IMG/VR virus record: IMGVR_UViG_3300028115_000070
Coordinates: 1 to 35,372 of that record
DNA from: a virus
DNA length: 35,372 bases
Strand: one strand, 5' to 3'
The notes under the pieces were generated by a model, which worked only from the letters and a program-made list of their open reading frames with translations, had not been told where the DNA came from and made no database searches. Positions 4,048 through 31,300 of the stretch are shown in pieces (position 1 is the stretch's first letter; every line of letters starts with the position of its first letter). A program made the translations under genes and the position numbers.

Positions 4048-4075
4048 AATATATGCGAGGAGAAGAGAATGTCAA
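4048..4075 (-). promoter_or_regulatory. Possible second sigma70-like promoter overlapping the lipase start, TTGACA-N16-TATATT
   Basis: TTGACA (4075-4070) and TATATT (4053-4048) are separated by 16 bases on the minus strand, 31 bases upstream of the promoter at 4017-4044. The -35 box overlaps the start codon of the plus-strand lipase and the spacer covers its ribosome-binding site. The match could be accidental, since the hexamer is partly the lipase ATG context. Confidence 0.35.
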
Positions 4076-4800
4076 CAATAGAGAATTCTGGCTTGCACTT
4101 CGCAACCCTAGCGAAAATAGCCTACCTAACAGAAAAAGACAGCAAACCAATTGCTAAAAAACTAGGTTACACAAAAACAAAACTAATAGATCACAAAGGT
4201 GCAGAATGTCTGTTTCTTGAGAACAGTAAGACTATTGTACTTGCATTCAGAGGTACAGAGCCAAAAGAGTTCAGCGATATAAAAGCAGACTTAAAAGCAT
4301 GGAAACGTAAAAGCCAAACAGAAGGCATGGTACATGCAGGATTTTACGATTACTTGGAACGCATCTGGGAAACAGTTGAGAATCATATAAACTATGGTAC
4401 CCGTGAGAAAAAAGCACTTTATATCTGCGGACACAGTTTAGGTGGAGCAATGGCGGCACTGGCGGCTAGTAGACTTAACGATAGAGTAGTTGCTTGTTAT
4501 ACATATGGACAACCACGTGTTGGAGGCAGTGACTGGTGTGCAAAACAAACTTACGAGCATCACAGATATGTAAACAATAATGATATTGTGCCTCGTGTTC
4601 CGTTATGGATTATGGGATTCCGTCATAGAGGTGAACTACACTATATAAACTATTATGGAAATATTCGTAAGATGACACCTTGGCAAATTATCAAAGATGG
4701 CTGGCGTGGTCGTATAAAAGCATGGAGTAAACTAGAGTTTTTTGATGGTGCTAGAGACCATAGTATGGATGCTTACGAAAATAAAATAGCCAAAAATTAA
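4069..4800 (+). CDS. Class 3 lipase (alpha/beta hydrolase), 243 aa
   Basis: This is a complete Lipase_3 family serine hydrolase. The nucleophile elbow GHSLGGAMAAL places Ser123. The acid is Asp172 in NNNDIVPRVP, and His231 in DHSMDAY completes the triad. AFRGTE near residue 60 matches the usual oxyanion-hole strand. There is no signal peptide or membrane segment, so it should act in the cytoplasm or reach membranes after lysis. A strong ribosome-binding site (GAGGAGAAGAG) precedes the ATG. It stands alone on the plus strand upstream of the polymerase-like gene. Likely substrates are host membrane acyl lipids or stored lipid; the role in infection (lysis or fatty-acid release) is inference. 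Confidence 0.9.
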   Translation: MSTIENSGLHFATLAKIAYLTEKDSKPIAKKLGYTKTKLIDHKGAECLFLENSKTIVLAFRGTEPKEFSDIKADLKAWKRKSQTEGMVHAGFYDYLERIWETVENHINYGTREKKALYICGHSLGGAMAALAASRLNDRVVACYTYGQPRVGGSDWCAKQTYEHHRYVNNNDIVPRVPLWIMGFRHRGELHYINYYGNIRKMTPWQIIKDGWRGRIKAWSKLEFFDGARDHSMDAYENKIAKN

Positions 4801-23825: not shown

Positions 23826-23856
23826 AAAAAGGACGAGTAGATTCAACTACCCGCCC
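23826..23856 (-). terminator. Rho-independent terminator between the AAA ATPase gene and fdxA
   Basis: On the minus strand GGGCGGGTAG pairs with CTACTCGTCC (10 pairs, two of them G-U in RNA) around the loop TTGAAT, followed by TTTTTATT. It is downstream of the AAA ATPase gene and ends 15 bases before the fdxA start. Confidence 0.8.
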
Positions 23857-23867
23857 TAGTAAATGAA

Positions 23868-23906
23868 CCACGTTTGGAGGAGAGAGAGGAGAGAGAGTAA
23901 ACGTGG
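23868..23906 (-). ncRNA. Hairpin with a 23-base CU-only-like loop (anti-Shine-Dalgarno type), candidate regulatory RNA
   Basis: On the minus strand CCACGTTT and AAACGTGG form a perfect 8-bp stem. The 23-base loop is almost wholly C and U, with CUCUCUCUCC and CCUCC, complementary to GGAGAGA/GGAGG ribosome-binding sites. It lies 10 bases after the AAA ATPase stop and 11 bases before the terminator, so the 3' end of that mRNA would be a two-hairpin RNA of about 90 bases. It may be a trans-acting RNA or a leader element for fdxA. Confidence 0.5.
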
Positions 23907-23916
23907 CTCAATTCAA

Positions 23917-24963
23917 TTACATTCGTTTCATACAAGTACTTTCAGCAAGTATTTTCCAATTGTTAGGACTAATCTTTGCAAGGTCCGCAACCTTTAGTGC
24001 CATCCTTAAACTTACTTCTCTGAACTTGTTACAGTTATCAGCAATAAAGTCTATAACTTCTGCTTGTATTTCTTTGCTCAAATCATAATCTTTAAATAGA
24101 TCACCTTTGTCTGCAATCTGTTTTACTCTAAGAATCTTATCTCTCATAGTATCTAATGTAAGATCCAAGTAATGACATCTACTTTGTAGAGCTTCTAAGT
24201 GATCCTGTAACTTTTTACTTCTAACATTCTCAAATTTAATGTTAGTAATAAAACAAGCACTACCTTTAAATTCAAACTTATCAGGAATGCCTTCGCTTCT
24301 TAGTTTATTACTTTCTGCATTCCAGTAAATCATTCTCTTCTTGCCACTATCCAGTGCCGCCTTAAGAATATTAAGTGCAAGGTCATCCATAAGCACACTA
24401 TCACAATCATCAAATACTAATACATTACCTTTGTCTGAGTATTCATATAACTTTGCATAAAGTCCTAGAGCAGTCATTGCACCTTTAACAACTTCATACT
24501 TTCTTCTACTACCAGCCATATCACCAAACAAACTGCTCTTGTTAAGTTCTTCTTCAACACCATAACTCTTACCAACACCTGGAGGACCAGTAACAATCAA
24601 TGCTCTAATATCACTGTTAATAAGACTCTTAGTCATCTGATCTAATATCTCAAACCTAGTACCAATTTCTGCAATTCTTTTTGCATCTTGTTCTGCAGTA
24701 AACTTAGGCTCTGCTTTTGCAACTACATCTGCCTTAGCACCTTCCTGCACGTTAAAACTATCCTGTTCAACAAACTTAATATCTTCAGGTGTATTGACTG
24801 CAACACGAATTTTTGTAGCCTCATCACCAAATCTACAACTACCATTTACAGTAACAAAACCGCCACCATCTTTTTTACTTTGAAAATTCTTAATTAAAGG
24901 AAATACAGTATTCTGTACTGCTTGATTTCTATAACTACCGTTCTTGACTAATACATATGACAT
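23917..24963 (-). CDS. AAA+ ATPase, 348 aa
   Basis: Walker A GPPGVGKS lies at residues 126-133 and Walker B is VLVFDDCDS; a sensor-1-like FITNI and an arginine-containing EALQSRCHYLDL follow. The N-terminal 100 residues are a separate beta-rich domain (MSYVLVKNGSYRNQ onwards). Such single-AAA proteins occur in marine T4-like phages with unknown role; a remodelling or chaperone function is typical for the superfamily. GGAGAGA precedes the ATG. It is first behind the early promoter at 25002-25029 and is followed by the CU-loop hairpin and terminator. Confidence 0.85.
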   Translation of the reverse strand: MSYVLVKNGSYRNQAVQNTVFPLIKNFQSKKDGGGFVTVNGSCRFGDEATKIRVAVNTPEDIKFVEQDSFNVQEGAKADVVAKAEPKFTAEQDAKRIAEIGTRFEILDQMTKSLINSDIRALIVTGPPGVGKSYGVEEELNKSSLFGDMAGSRRKYEVVKGAMTALGLYAKLYEYSDKGNVLVFDDCDSVLMDDLALNILKAALDSGKKRMIYWNAESNKLRSEGIPDKFEFKGSACFITNIKFENVRSKKLQDHLEALQSRCHYLDLTLDTMRDKILRVKQIADKGDLFKDYDLSKEIQAEVIDFIADNCNKFREVSLRMALKVADLAKISPNNWKILAESTCMKRM

Positions 24964-25001
24964 TCATCTCTCCATTTATGTCTTTAATTAACTATACACA
25001 T

Positions 25002-25029
25002 ATAATAGCATCATAATAGATAATGTCAA
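25002..25029 (-). promoter_or_regulatory. Sigma70-like early promoter, TTGACA-N16-TATTAT
   Basis: TTGACA (25029-25024) and TATTAT (25007-25002) on the minus strand, 39 bases upstream of the AAA ATPase start, in the 67-base gap after rpiB. The -35 box is exact and the spacing is 16. Confidence 0.7.
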
Positions 25030-25030
25030 C

Positions 25031-25459
25031 CTAAATACTAAACTTTTTTATTCTTTTTTCGTGCCTGCCACCTTCGAAGTCTGTAGTGAGGAATACTTCT
25101 AACATTTCTGTAGCAACATAAGGCAATGTAATACGTCCTCCCATACATAGTATGTTACAATTTCCATGACTCCTAGCAAGCTCTGCCATATTTGCATCTG
25201 TACATAGTGCAGCTCTTATATCAGTATGTTTATTAGCACACATTGCCATACCTTGTCCTGTACCACAGATAAGGATACCATAATCATAATCATCATGTAG
25301 TAAACAATCTATAACTTTTTCTGCAAAGTCGGGATAATCTACACTATCAGTATTATTTGTTCCTAGATCAGTATAGGTATGATTACTATTATCTAGGTAA
25401 GTTTTAATCTTATTCTTTAATTCGAGACCGCCATGGTCACATGCTATTGCTAATTTCAT
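25031..25459 (-). CDS. rpiB: Ribose-5-phosphate isomerase B, 142 aa
   Basis: MKLAIACDHGGLELKNKI gives the substrate-binding Asp8-His9, ICGTGQGMAMCANK holds catalytic Cys65 and the anion loop, and ARSHGNCNILCMGGR supplies the second histidine. This is a full-length RpiB/LacA-family enzyme converting ribulose 5-phosphate and ribose 5-phosphate. The ATG at 25459 gives the standard N-terminus; an upstream in-frame extension overlaps the previous gene and is not family-like. As a phage auxiliary gene it would push pentose phosphates towards nucleotide synthesis. It ends immediately before the promoter of the AAA gene. Confidence 0.9.
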   Translation of the reverse strand: MKLAIACDHGGLELKNKIKTYLDNSNHTYTDLGTNNTDSVDYPDFAEKVIDCLLHDDYDYGILICGTGQGMAMCANKHTDIRAALCTDANMAELARSHGNCNILCMGGRITLPYVATEMLEVFLTTDFEGGRHEKRIKKFSI

Positions 25460-25467
25460 GTTTGTAT

Positions 25468-26604
25468 TTACAATTGAAAACCTTCTGGTATTAATTCTTT
25501 CTGTGTAAAAACTTCTAAAGTATCCAAATCTATAAACCAAGCAAATTTTCCAGTATTATTATAATTTGCAAACCCATCTTGATGTCCATATTCAGGGACT
25601 AGTTTACTAAAGGTATTCATCGCATTGTAATAATTCACTAAAACATCCTGTCGCGAAGACTTAATAGTATCAGTTATTCTTTGTAAAGCCTTACTGCTAT
25701 GATATTTTTGATTAGGTAAATTTTTAAACAGTTGCATTTCATAATTTTTTACATTGCTTCTACCCAAAACCTTATTTAATTTGTAATCCTGAGTAGGTTT
25801 ATGGAACTGTAAAGATTTATTGTTATTGATAAGATCATTAGTTTGCAGGTAGTCACGATATATTAAACTATCTTTTATGTAACTTTTTATATTGTCTGCA
25901 TCTAACCAAAACCATTTTACATTTTTGTTTTCATTGTCTGCCGCAATTTGAGTATCAATCAAACATGCATACCATTTTTTATTATACCTTACTAATTGTG
26001 GTTTATCAGCACCTTTTATGTAACATGCATTAGATTGATAATCTATTTCAGGATGATTATCTAATGGAGATCTAAAAGGAACTACTACACATCCATTTGT
26101 ATTAAAAAACGCCATATCATCAGAATACTTATTTTTATGGTAATCAAAATTACAAGTTAGAATTTTATAATCTATTTTACTTTTTTCAAGAAAAGGAATT
26201 GCACAGTTAACTATTTCAGTATTACAATTTAACGTTAATGAATCATAAGTCAAACAAAAAACATTGTCTATATCTATTTTATTATTCACTACAGTTTCTA
26301 GAATAGTTGTGCTATCTGCACCACCACTATAAAATAAATTCATATGCTTATATTGTTTTGATAATAGTTTTAAAAAATTTAAATTGTAATTATATTCAAT
26401 ACTAATAGTACCATGTAAATTGTTTCTTATTTGATTAATATTATTATCTACAAAAGTAACGTAACTTTTTTGCGACGTTTCATACCATAATGCTAAGTTT
26501 TTATTGTAAAACTTATAGCCATCTGCTTCATAATAATAAGGATATTGGTTTTCATCAACACATTCTGTAGATTTTGTAATTAAATTTTTAAAACTTGTGT
26601 CCAT
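25468..26604 (-). CDS. PP-loop ATP pyrophosphatase (N-type), 378 aa
   Basis: NLFYSGGADSTTIL carries the intact PP-loop SGGADS at residues 93-98, as in asparagine synthase, QueC and related AMP-forming amidating enzymes. No glutaminase domain is present. The ATG at 26604 lies within the end of the AsnB-like gene (17-base overlap); TTG and GTG codons three and one positions upstream are alternatives. It directly follows an AsnB-like protein whose own PP-loop is degenerate, so the two may form one enzyme in which this subunit makes the adenylate. Substrate unknown. Confidence 0.75.
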   Translation of the reverse strand: MDTSFKNLITKSTECVDENQYPYYYEADGYKFYNKNLALWYETSQKSYVTFVDNNINQIRNNLHGTISIEYNYNLNFLKLLSKQYKHMNLFYSGGADSTTILETVVNNKIDIDNVFCLTYDSLTLNCNTEIVNCAIPFLEKSKIDYKILTCNFDYHKNKYSDDMAFFNTNGCVVVPFRSPLDNHPEIDYQSNACYIKGADKPQLVRYNKKWYACLIDTQIAADNENKNVKWFWLDADNIKSYIKDSLIYRDYLQTNDLINNNKSLQFHKPTQDYKLNKVLGRSNVKNYEMQLFKNLPNQKYHSSKALQRITDTIKSSRQDVLVNYYNAMNTFSKLVPEYGHQDGFANYNNTGKFAWFIDLDTLEVFTQKELIPEGFQL

Positions 26605-27865
26605 CACTCGCAAACCTTGTTTTTTCTAATTGAAAAGGATATTTATTCTCTTTCATATAAGTAACTAACCAGTGCTTATGACCTGAGTTTTTAAGTTCCA
26701 CAGTAGTATTAAGAAAACTTTGAAACAATCTTTGGTCTAAAAGAGGATACCTAGCCTCTATTCCAAAATGTCCACAAATAGTATCACTTCTGTGTAGTTG
26801 ATTATTAAGCCTTGTAAATTCATAATTAAACCAAGGATAAATTAATCTTAAATCTTTTGGCCATGATCCATTTATTTTTCCTACTCTTCCAAATGTAACC
26901 TTATCCAATGAATAATCATCATACAGTTCATCTCCTCCTATTCCACTAATACAAATTTTTTGTTTGTTTGGTAAAAAATGATTAGATAGTATTGATATAA
27001 GAGCTCTCGCATGAGTACCATGTAAATTCATACAATTATACTGTTTAAATATTTCTTTCATCTTATTATTAAACATTAAATCATTGGCTTTATCAATTAA
27101 AGGCTTCTTTTGTAAATGTAACCTTAGTCCTAAGGTTCTAGCATCTTCTCTGCCTATTTTACTGACAGTAAACATATCTGAATTAAAAAATTTCCTAGCA
27201 CAACATGCATTTACACCTGCATCTACTCCTGCACTTAACATATACGTTGTAATACCTGGCTCGTGTCTATCCTTAATTGCTTGTTCAAAGTCTTCAAAGA
27301 CTTTATCATAATTATTTGTTTTTTGTTGCAAATTCCATTCAGTATTTTCTATAATAGTTAACTTAAAATTACTTTTATCTATTATATAAATTTTATTTAA
27401 TTCTGCTTTTACTGCAAAAGGACTATAAGCAAGCACAAAATCCATTGTACTTCCACAAACAAATTGTTTGCTTTCTTCATCATAATAAAAATAAAGATTC
27501 TTTGTTGCCCATTGATCTACTGCAAATACTATATGAGTGTTTGTAATATACGTTAAACTATATTCTCCTATTAATGATTTAATTACATCTATAGTTCTGT
27601 TTAAATTATTGTCTAAATTATTAATTATATATTGGGTATCATTATCCTTGCTATTGTATGTGCTACCATTATAAACAAGAATACCATGTTTATTTTGAAT
27701 AGGTTGAGGTGTAGATGCTCCTCTCGTATTGAGAAGAGCATGACCATAATATTCATTATCTACACTGATGCAATCAAAAAACTCTGGGCCTCTGTATTTG
27801 ATACTGCTTACAAAGTTATGGTTTCCATCAATAGGTATGTTATATGAGTAATAATACCCACACAT
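26588..27865 (-). CDS. asnB: Asparagine synthase-like protein (class II glutaminase plus degenerate PP-loop), 425 aa
   Basis: The ATG at 27865 puts Cys2 as the N-terminal nucleophile (MCGYYYSY), as required for class II amidotransferases; an upstream in-frame extension would bury it and is rejected. YRGPEF and LLNTRGAS fit the glutaminase domain. The synthase domain shows SGIGGDELYDDY and GIEARYPLLDQRLF, typical of AsnB, but the PP-loop is LSAGVDAG instead of LSGGxDS, losing the serine. It could have reduced synthetase activity or act with the next gene's intact PP-loop. It begins 2 bases after tctC. Confidence 0.75.
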   Translation of the reverse strand: MCGYYYSYNIPIDGNHNFVSSIKYRGPEFFDCISVDNEYYGHALLNTRGASTPQPIQNKHGILVYNGSTYNSKDNDTQYIINNLDNNLNRTIDVIKSLIGEYSLTYITNTHIVFAVDQWATKNLYFYYDEESKQFVCGSTMDFVLAYSPFAVKAELNKIYIIDKSNFKLTIIENTEWNLQQKTNNYDKVFEDFEQAIKDRHEPGITTYMLSAGVDAGVNACCARKFFNSDMFTVSKIGREDARTLGLRLHLQKKPLIDKANDLMFNNKMKEIFKQYNCMNLHGTHARALISILSNHFLPNKQKICISGIGGDELYDDYSLDKVTFGRVGKINGSWPKDLRLIYPWFNYEFTRLNNQLHRSDTICGHFGIEARYPLLDQRLFQSFLNTTVELKNSGHKHWLVTYMKENKYPFQLEKTRFASDGHKF

Positions 27866-27867
27866 AG

Positions 27868-28743
27868 TTAGTTTTTGCCTGTCAACACATCTACAATAGA
27901 CCAAAATGCTTTCTGTTGATCATCTATTTGAGTACCAGGTGTCATATATGCCTTTTCAATATAACTGGCAATTTTTTCACTTTCAATTACTCTTTTAAGA
28001 TCTTTTCTAACAGTATCTAAATTGCTATCATCAATGTTTGCTGCATGAAAATATTTTAATGTACCAGTTTCATTTAGTCTCCATTTTGGAAACAATTTAT
28101 TCATTGGTGTTCTGCCTGCAATTTCAGTATTAGAACTTGTAGTAAAACAATTAATTTGTTTATTATTAATTTCACGTTTTGTGAATCCACTGTACATTAA
28201 ATCAGTATCACCTGCTATTAATGCTTTAATAATATTCTTACTGCCATTAATATCTACTCTTACAAATTTTACACCAGTTTCTTCAGTAAGTTCATCATAT
28301 ACACCATCAAACAAACTAGCAGTATTAGCAACTGTTACACGACTTTTTCCTTTTAAAAAATCATTTATGTTAGTAAAAGGTTGATCAGCTCTTACACACA
28401 TTGTTTGATGTCTTTGGTAAAATACTGTTAAAAATGATTTATCATCTACTTTTACTTTACAATTTCTTGACTCATCTTTTACATATCTACTAGTATCACG
28501 TAAGAAAACACCAGGCCTTCCTGTATTTTTTGCCATGTATGCTTTATTATTCACACAGTTTTTTGTAACAACAACCTCACTATCATAGCCTAACTCTTTA
28601 AGAGCATCACTTATCAAATTACTTTCTGCGAAAGCATTTCCTTTTGTACCTGAAGGCACTATAACATCTAAAACTGGCTTTGCATATGCATTAGATGTAA
28701 TTGCAAAAAATATTGCAACAATTAATAATTTTATTTTTGTCAT
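27868..28743 (-). CDS. tctC: Tripartite tricarboxylate transporter substrate-binding protein (TctC-like), 291 aa
   Basis: A signal peptide (LLIVAIFFAITSNAYA, cleaved after about residue 22) precedes a periplasmic-binding-protein fold: LDVIVPSGTKGNAFAESNLI, TVANTASLFDGVYDEL, and IIKALIAGDTDLMYSG. Similarity to classical TctC (Bug) proteins is moderate; the assignment is helped by the adjacent tctA. It would capture carboxylates in the periplasm and hand them to TctA. AAGGAG precedes the ATG, 11 bases after tctA. Confidence 0.7.
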   Translation of the reverse strand: MTKIKLLIVAIFFAITSNAYAKPVLDVIVPSGTKGNAFAESNLISDALKELGYDSEVVVTKNCVNNKAYMAKNTGRPGVFLRDTSRYVKDESRNCKVKVDDKSFLTVFYQRHQTMCVRADQPFTNINDFLKGKSRVTVANTASLFDGVYDELTEETGVKFVRVDINGSKNIIKALIAGDTDLMYSGFTKREINNKQINCFTTSSNTEIAGRTPMNKLFPKWRLNETGTLKYFHAANIDDSNLDTVRKDLKRVIESEKIASYIEKAYMTPGTQIDDQQKAFWSIVDVLTGKN

Positions 28744-28754
28744 TTCAAGACTCC

Positions 28755-30137
28755 TTAATTAAAATTTACTTGATAAAATATACCTAAACTTGCAAATAGT
28801 TTGTCCTGTAGGACAAATGCAATTATCAGGCACATAGGTTCTGCTTTTCTTAACCAATATCCTAACGGTGCTAAAACAACTAATACTGTCATATAATATA
28901 ATGCTTCATGTCCTTGTGCTCCTAAGAAATATGTTAAAACAACTAAAAAAATACCTGTAGTCCATAACATATGCTTTACACTTATTTTCGTTAAAAGATT
29001 AACATATCTAACCAAAGGCCATGCAAATAAGAAACATACTGCATTTATTAATATAAACCAAACTGCAATATCCTGAAACATTCCTGCTTCAACTGTAGTT
29101 TCATAATTTATATCATAACTTTTAATATCCATAAAACTTAAAAGAACTGCTTCACTAACTGTGATAGGTATGCCTATTAACATAAGTGGAAGTAAACTTA
29201 CTAGTCCTGTACTATTATTTGCAGTTTCAGCTGATACTAGACTTTTAATATCACCTTTACTGTTGTAATTTTTATTTTTAATAGATAGTTTCTTTTCTAT
29301 TGCATAACTTAAATTACTGCTTATGTTTGCACCTATGTGAGGCACTAAACCTATAAAAGATCCAAATACACTGCCACGTAAACTACTAGGAATATGTTTT
29401 ATAAATTCTTTAATATGATCTATAAAACTATTTTTATCTTCATAGTTCCTTTTTGATGTGTAGTTGGCAAACATACTAGATGTTTGTAGTAATGTAGGAA
29501 ATACATATAAAGATACAATAACAGGAAATAGAGGAATTTGATGCATTAATAAAGGAAAAGTTTCATATGGTATAACTTCAGGTAAAAATACAAAATAAGG
29601 ACTCCAATTTGTACCAATTAATCCTAAAAATATACCAATAGAAAAAACAAAAATGTTTTGTAGTATATTTTTGCCTAGTAGAAAACAAATACTTGTACTA
29701 GCGAGGATTAGGATAATAATCTGTACATTATTGTTATAGAACTTTTTAATAAACTCTATTGCAAATGGCAAAATAAAATATACTGCAATTAATGCAATAA
29801 ATGATCCTAATACACTACCCAAGGCCGCATTACTAATAGCAAAGTTTCCTACACCACGATTAAACATTCTGTTGCCTTCAACTACTGCAGGCAAACTGGA
29901 ACTTTCTCCTGGCACTCCAAACACTGTTGCTATTATACTACCACTAAATTGACTGCTACTAATAATTGCAAGATAATAAAGTAACATCTGCAACATACTA
30001 GCATCTTTCAGTAATGGATAACTCATTACAATCATAATTGTATTGCCAACACCAGGAACAAGTCCACTAATAAATCCTAGTACTGTGCCTAATACCACAA
30101 ATACAGTATCATTTAATAATAATGAATAGTCGATCAT
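28755..30137 (-). CDS. tctA: Tripartite tricarboxylate transporter large permease (TctA), 460 aa
   Basis: About 11-12 membrane helices with TctA signatures: LGFISGLVPGVGNTI near residue 20, SGSIIATVFGVPGESSS near 65-80, GLVPHIGANISSNLSYAIEK near 270, and SAETANNSTGLVSLLPLMLI near 305. It imports tri- or dicarboxylates with an ion gradient. A TctB gene (small permease) is not found between or beside tctA and tctC. Transcription from the exact-consensus promoter at 30146-30174 would start only about two bases before this ATG, implying a leaderless message. Confidence 0.88.
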   Translation of the reverse strand: MIDYSLLLNDTVFVVLGTVLGFISGLVPGVGNTIMIVMSYPLLKDASMLQMLLYYLAIISSSQFSGSIIATVFGVPGESSSLPAVVEGNRMFNRGVGNFAISNAALGSVLGSFIALIAVYFILPFAIEFIKKFYNNNVQIIILILASTSICFLLGKNILQNIFVFSIGIFLGLIGTNWSPYFVFLPEVIPYETFPLLMHQIPLFPVIVSLYVFPTLLQTSSMFANYTSKRNYEDKNSFIDHIKEFIKHIPSSLRGSVFGSFIGLVPHIGANISSNLSYAIEKKLSIKNKNYNSKGDIKSLVSAETANNSTGLVSLLPLMLIGIPITVSEAVLLSFMDIKSYDINYETTVEAGMFQDIAVWFILINAVCFLFAWPLVRYVNLLTKISVKHMLWTTGIFLVVLTYFLGAQGHEALYYMTVLVVLAPLGYWLRKAEPMCLIIAFVLQDKLFASLGIFYQVNFN

Positions 30138-30921: not shown

Positions 30922-31134
30922 TTATATAAACATAGGTAATTTAGGCCAGGGTGTATCTATGCCATTACGTTGATCTAAATAAGTCATTACTAATTCTAAT
31001 TCAAAGTGTTCGTTATTTGCTAGATACATTACAAGAGCATCAAAGCCTACATCGCCCTCATAAACAAAATCATCTACAGGTTGGTCCTGCATAAACATTT
31101 CTGTTGCAGTTCTGAAAGTTTCGTTGCTAAACAT
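30922..31134 (-). CDS. Small acidic protein, 70 aa
   Basis: A strongly acidic soluble protein (MFSNETFRTATEMFMQDQPV, then EGDVGFDALVMYLANNEHFELELVM). Acidic early phage proteins of this size are often inhibitors or DNA mimics, but nothing specific is seen here. It overlaps the upstream membrane microprotein gene by 8 bases (ATGTTTAG). Confidence 0.6.
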   Translation of the reverse strand: MFSNETFRTATEMFMQDQPVDDFVYEGDVGFDALVMYLANNEHFELELVMTYLDQRNGIDTPWPKLPMFI

Positions 31135-31300
31135 ATGTTACACTCCAGTCAGTTACTAATAAACTATAAATTATAAGAGCAAAAACTATTCCAATTATTA
31201 TAACACTTAATTTAAAAACTGAATTAAAAATAAATGGTGCAAGTTTAAATAGTGCATATGCAATAAAAATAAATCCTGCAATTTGTAATATAGTTTCCAT
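31127..31300 (-). CDS. Membrane microprotein, 57 aa
   Basis: Two closely spaced hydrophobic segments (ILQIAGFIFIAYALF and VIIIGIVFALIIYSLLV) around a short basic turn make a helical hairpin in the membrane. AGAG precedes the ATG. It is the first gene after the promoter at 31329-31356 and is coupled to the 70-residue gene. It could be an early host-membrane-modifying protein; function unknown. Confidence 0.6.
   Translation of the reverse strand: METILQIAGFIFIAYALFKLAPFIFNSVFKLSVIIIGIVFALIIYSLLVTDWSVTYV

Follow-up and report, generated by a model that had tools for sequence, protein, structure and literature searches.

Bacterial 3'UTR-derived autoregulatory small RNAs carry a regulator in the 3'UTR of an mRNA and act both on that mRNA and on others. 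Other described systems act on translation initiation. In the phages P1 and P7, the C4 antisense RNA uses complementary stretches, probably in loops, to block a phage ribosome-binding site, or RBS (PMC12197685). The alpha-r14 (NfeR1) RNAs of rhizobia have hairpins with variable stems and an identical anti-Shine-Dalgarno (anti-SD) loop motif, three per RNA (PMC10746234), and in about 30 mRNAs the initiation region is contested between ribosomes and the phage factor RegA of T4 (PMC3014915).

The element analysed here lies on the minus strand, at 23910-23826, of a 35-kb virus record with phage-type replication genes (35,372 nucleotides; we call this whole stretch the window). Its expected job is similar to that of RegA, but RegA is a protein that recognises A+U-rich sites, whereas we propose an RNA that pairs with ribosome-binding sites. 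Like C4, it would be a phage antisense RNA acting at an RBS; however, C4 has one target, the RBS of the antirepressor ant mRNA, in temperate phages of the P1 type, whereas the element follows an AAA ATPase gene (AAA), and its predicted partners are AAA and several small early genes with a common RBS sequence, in phages that are probably lytic. In the broad functional sense it belongs with the anti-SD base-pairing small RNAs, since it has an unpaired loop complementary to target RBSs, and one clade of its relatives, marked by the motif GCCCTC, can carry up to three loops, as alpha-r14 does. Yet alpha-r14 is host-encoded and has three hairpins with a fixed CCUCCUCCC, whereas the element is phage-encoded, attached to AAA and furnished with a loop that changes with the extended RBS of the phage; the window has one loop hairpin with CTCTCTCCTCTCTCTCCTCC, and its loop lacks CCTCCTCCC. 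From the bacterial 3'UTR-derived RNAs the element differs in being phage-encoded.

No match in the window reaches the gathering score of a family in Rfam 15 (the best at the site, SdsR_RyeB, scores 19.7 bits where the gathering score is 38), and in 16 related loci only tRNAs were found, so that a known Rfam family was dropped as the identity of the element. We found no description of this RNA in the open-access literature. We propose a new family, the AAA-3'UTR antisense-RBS RNA, whose members follow a PHROG-1250 AAA gene, end at a terminator and are antisense to the RBS of that gene; all of this is seen in the window, where the match is 7 nt long. In our reading, the element is probably an antisense RNA from the AAA 3'UTR, preventing the translation of AAA and, in several lineages, that of an early regulon as well.

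Structure and conservation of the element

The preliminary description had proposed a hairpin with a CU loop followed by a terminator, and both are real. The hairpin begins six bases past the AAA stop codon. Its arms, TGAGCCACGTTT (23899-23910) and AAACGTGGTTCA (23864-23875), form 12 pairs, one of them G-U, so that the stem itself stands while the earlier count of 8 perfect pairs was too low. They enclose an unpaired, pyrimidine-rich loop of 23 nt, ACTCTCTCTCCTCTCTCTCCTCC (23876-23898), which is antisense to RBSs of the types GGAGAGA and AGGAGAGA and contains CTCTCTCC twice. With up to two mismatches allowed, a 13-mer from the loop occurs twice in the window, both times within this loop, where 0.18 occurrences are expected. 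The terminator hairpin and the five T that follow it occupy 23826-23857, and relatives have two-sided changes at 10 of its 12 pairs.

Statistical support for the window element is comparative, resting on a covariance-model match and on two-sided compensatory changes. The model scores the window at 55 bits (E 7.5e-9), the window itself being among the 24 training rows. In about 24 distinct IMG/VR loci, a hairpin of different stem with a CU loop, followed by a terminator hairpin, stands directly after AAA, and the loop remains an unpaired CU tract while the stem pairs change. The preliminary description had staked its reading on the conservation of stem and loop in relatives, and this is borne out: the alignment of 24 distinct sequences (A1) has a two-sided compensatory change at 20 of 22 base pairs, including every pair of the main helix of the loop hairpin. 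Paired cells make up 98.3% of this alignment, compared with 73% in shuffles and 33-43% when the structure is slid along it, and the covariation score is 0.80, compared with 0.31 and 0.07-0.15, respectively. The model was run against 19 records and matched in 13, most of these matches being sequences used to build it; the 13 include G019, a close relative of the window with a length of 131.6 kb. Among the same 19 records, G012-G017 gave no match. Despite a variable stem, the loop of the terminator hairpin, GTTTAGAAATAGAC, hardly differs among many loci of A1 and may have a function of its own.

Attachment to the AAA gene

The AAA gene (PHROG 1250, T4 nrdC.10-like) occupies 23917-24963 on the minus strand and is a likely target of the element in its 3'UTR. 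Its promoter, TTGACA-N13-TGCTATTAT (25002-25029, minus strand), is of the early type common to predicted target genes. Its RBS, GGAGAGA (24967-24973, minus strand), is perfectly complementary to the loop (UCUCUCC) over 7 nt, though matches of this length also occur in some flanking windows. Further along, open reading frames at 25031-27904 resemble, by eye, ribose-5-phosphate isomerase B and asparagine synthase, and at 27868-30137 (minus strand) a TctA permease (PF01970) adjoins a TctC-like receptor with an NMT1 domain, a set of phage-borne tricarboxylate uptake genes. As for the host, assignment through AAA led to no more than three contigs in binned MAGs, of mixed taxonomy.

The element belongs to AAA and not to fdxA, the next gene in the window. 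Scans with the fdxA and AAA proteins reveal that it accompanies AAA in different settings, with an SGNH hydrolase-like gene, fdxA or others downstream, and that most fdxA homologues lack it. An origin in the 3'UTR, as first suggested, thus agrees with its recurrence directly 3' of AAA, while the other early suggestion, an attenuator controlling fdxA, is unsupported for the reasons just given and was dropped. Could the element nevertheless be nothing more than an intrinsic terminator, or an attenuator, placed between AAA and whatever gene comes next, with a CU loop that is incidental? A terminator hairpin with a T run does come after the loop hairpin, and several relatives carry just a plain terminator there. 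However, termination needs no separate upstream hairpin with a covarying stem and a conserved loop, the next gene differs between loci and is often preceded, past the terminator, by a TATAAT-like promoter of its own, and loop and RBS co-vary, as described below; we regard this explanation as very improbable.

Co-variation of loop and ribosome-binding site

Across 19 protein clusters (75% identity), the leader of AAA fits its own 3'UTR better than swapped ones (0 of 5000 permutations did as well), with match lengths of 7.6 for own and 5.8 for swapped pairs and matches of at least 9 nt in 37% and 1.2%, respectively, part of every match being the SD core. The same holds for 82 clusters at 90% identity (0 of 5000), and the effect is weaker for 7 clusters at 65% (47 of 5000 for match length, 438 of 5000 for duplex energy). 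A gene's own 3'UTR also beats flanking windows of the same locus (Wilcoxon p 2e-8), with 12 of 50 clusters in the top 5%.

The co-variation can be read directly from the lineages. Loops with CUCUCUCC go with GGAGAGAG sites and loops with UUGCUCCUCC go with GGAGGAGCAA sites: in the UUGCUCCUCC-loop phages AAA has GGAGGAGCAA and a gene of about 120 aa has GAGGAGCAAG, where the first clade has GGAGAGAG and GAGGAGAGAG instead. In phages with a UUGCUCC loop, AAA and the gene of about 120 aa, both of them predicted targets in the first clade, have switched to GAGGAGCAA(G). RBSs of the type AGGAGTAACTAT pair with AAA 3'UTRs beginning ATAGTTACTCC(T), over 11-12 nt, and outside the CU-loop phages an GGAGTAACTAT RBS is accompanied by an AAA 3'UTR that opens with ATAGTTACTCC. 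Likewise, GGAGCTA is found with TAGCTCC in 12 of 23 loci compared with 3 of 104, and TAGGAGAA with TTCTCCTA or CTCCTAG in 2 of 7 compared with 1 of 120. Since clades share ancestry, these cases represent few independent switches of loop and RBS, perhaps six to ten as judged by eye.

For concreteness, consider G014, whose early genes use GAGGGCA. Its hairpin was foretold from promoter-defined leaders, then looked for and found: the AAA 3'UTR forms a perfect 10-bp hairpin with UGCCCUC in the loop. Throughout this clade, GCCCUC is present in 32 of 32 loci of the GAGGGC type and in 11 of 95 others. The hexamer occurs 2.5 times per 220-nt 3'UTR, compared with 0.017 times in flanks (a ratio of about 150), and it is unpaired in predicted folds in 67 of 94 cases, compared with 356 of 2264 for other GC-rich hexamers, with 54 distinct hairpins.

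These results broaden the first reading of the loop as CU-rich and anti-SD: its antisense relation to RBSs holds, and the restriction to CU-rich sequence was too narrow, as the loop tracks whichever extended RBS the phage uses. They also bear on two other explanations. One is that the RNA acts in trans mainly against host mRNAs, shutting off host translation in the manner of alphaproteobacterial anti-SD small RNAs. With their CCUCC, CU-rich loops would find pairing partners in many host SD sequences, and the hairpin loops of alpha-r14 offer a precedent (PMC10746234). However, the loop changes in concert with those parts of the phage's extended RBS that lie outside the SD core, which targeting the host does not require, and such an RNA would strike the phage's own genes too, so we consider a mainly host-directed role improbable. 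The other is that a protein, of the phage or of the host, recognises and binds the CU loop; sites of this kind, too, typically keep their unpaired loop while the stem varies. Here the loops of other lineages, being completely different (UGCCCUC, GUUACUCC, UAGCUCC) and in step with the RBS, speak against a protein site, and we give it hardly any weight, less than any other alternative.

Antisense stretches are not universal. We found no antisense hairpin for the second early RBS class, AAGGACCAA(GC), of the early leaders of G002-G004 (L251, L253, L297, L304), nor for G017 (AAGGAGTTG), and some AAA lineages (L104-L116, T4-like isolates) have no antisense stretch. Among cultured relatives, Vibrio phages, Acj9 and Erwinia FBB1 have no obvious antisense 3'UTR; Pseudomonas PA5oct has an 8-nt match, with 39 AGGAGTAGCA-like sites compared with 17 control sites, only about twice as frequent.

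Predicted targets and proposed mechanism

Which genes, then, might the loop address? In G019, about ten small genes use AGGAGAGA, the exact antisense of the loop UCUCUCCU; most of them lie together at 82-96 kb, upstream of the element, and most of this cluster maps to a region past the window's end. More generally, GGAG is extended to GGAGAGA in 35 of 170 SD genes of CUCUCUCC-loop phages, compared with 2 of 87 in the other loop clade and 2 of 137 in phages without a model match (Fisher p 3e-10), counts that include homologous genes of related phages and are not fully independent. Many matching sites lie behind the strong promoter that AAA also has, TTGACA-N13-TG(C/T)TATnnT (promoter enrichment p 5e-4). 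Gene starts were called by simple rules, and "early" denotes promoter type and clustering of small genes rather than expression timing. Within the window, the strongest loop duplex (-17.7 kcal/mol) is with the RBS GAGGAGAAGAG of a class 3 lipase gene (4057-4800, plus strand), a predicted target whose homologues in G009 and G001 match their own loops too, over 11 and 9 nt. A 57-aa gene with the same early promoter (31127-31300, minus strand) has AGAGAGT in its leader AAAAGAGAGTTTA, 7 nt complementary to the loop, and is a weak candidate. The suggestion that phage mRNAs, AAA among them, are likely targets thus gains from the complementarity at the AAA RBS and from matching early-promoter genes in relatives, insofar as targets can be predicted from sequence.

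In G019, G007, G008, G005 and G014, early-promoter genes other than AAA are better matched to the AAA 3'UTR of their phage than the remaining SD genes are, and in G014 the match is at least 7 nt in 8 of 9 such genes. The same comparison gave no significant or clear excess in G001, G002, G003, G004, G006 and G009, and because of this the claim of a regulon is weaker than that of AAA autoregulation. Might the element then act only in cis, its 3'UTR pairing with the RBS of its own AAA mRNA, with no trans-acting small RNA at all? The AAA leader is the most consistent partner across all classes, the element begins a few bases past the stop codon, and in the 120 kb of G012 that were examined AAA is the only gene with a matching RBS. 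On the other hand, the 8-nt AGGAGAGA at about ten other genes of G019 fits the loop better than the 7 nt of AAA itself, two genes switched together to GAGGAGCAA(G), the other early genes of G014 match as described, and some lineages have several loops. We therefore regard regulation purely in cis as unlikely, though less so than the other alternatives.

How could an antisense RNA of this kind work? We envisage that AAA would be transcribed from its strong sigma70-type early promoter and that its mRNA would end at the terminator, so that the 3'UTR hairpin would display an unpaired stretch antisense to the AAA RBS and, in several lineages, to the RBSs of small genes sharing the early promoter and leader. 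With the build-up of AAA mRNA, or of a 3' fragment processed from it, the loop would pair with these RBSs, 30S binding would be blocked, and the genes would be shut off; negative autoregulation of AAA would in this way have been extended into an off switch for early genes. A bolder statement, which seems to us evenly balanced between right and wrong, is that the element is the RNA equivalent of T4 RegA and is widespread among uncultured phages, where one 3'UTR-derived RNA silences an early-gene regulon through an extended-RBS address, and where address and antisense loop have been switched together several times in evolution. If so, phages without a RegA-like protein would have an RNA answer, readable from sequence, to the switching off of early translation. 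The RBS similarity among one phage's early genes outside the SD core would then have an explanation, and nature would supply sets of orthogonal RBS/antisense pairs. Co-evolution of an RNA with its targets across a whole regulon has rarely been visible before.

Some loci have additional features near the element. Repeated TTTGACGG motifs stand immediately before the hairpin (L082, 4195-4265; L083, 2310-2320; upstream of the element in L084 and L085). A second type of hairpin, with the loop CCCTCTCTCTTCTTC, occurs in tandem (L082, 4050-4110; L083, 2180-2235; L179, 3779; L187, 685), and in G001 a loop of the CCCTCTCTCTTCTTC type has a 14-nt antisense match (GGAAGAAGAGAGAG) with the RBS of a gene of 674 aa.
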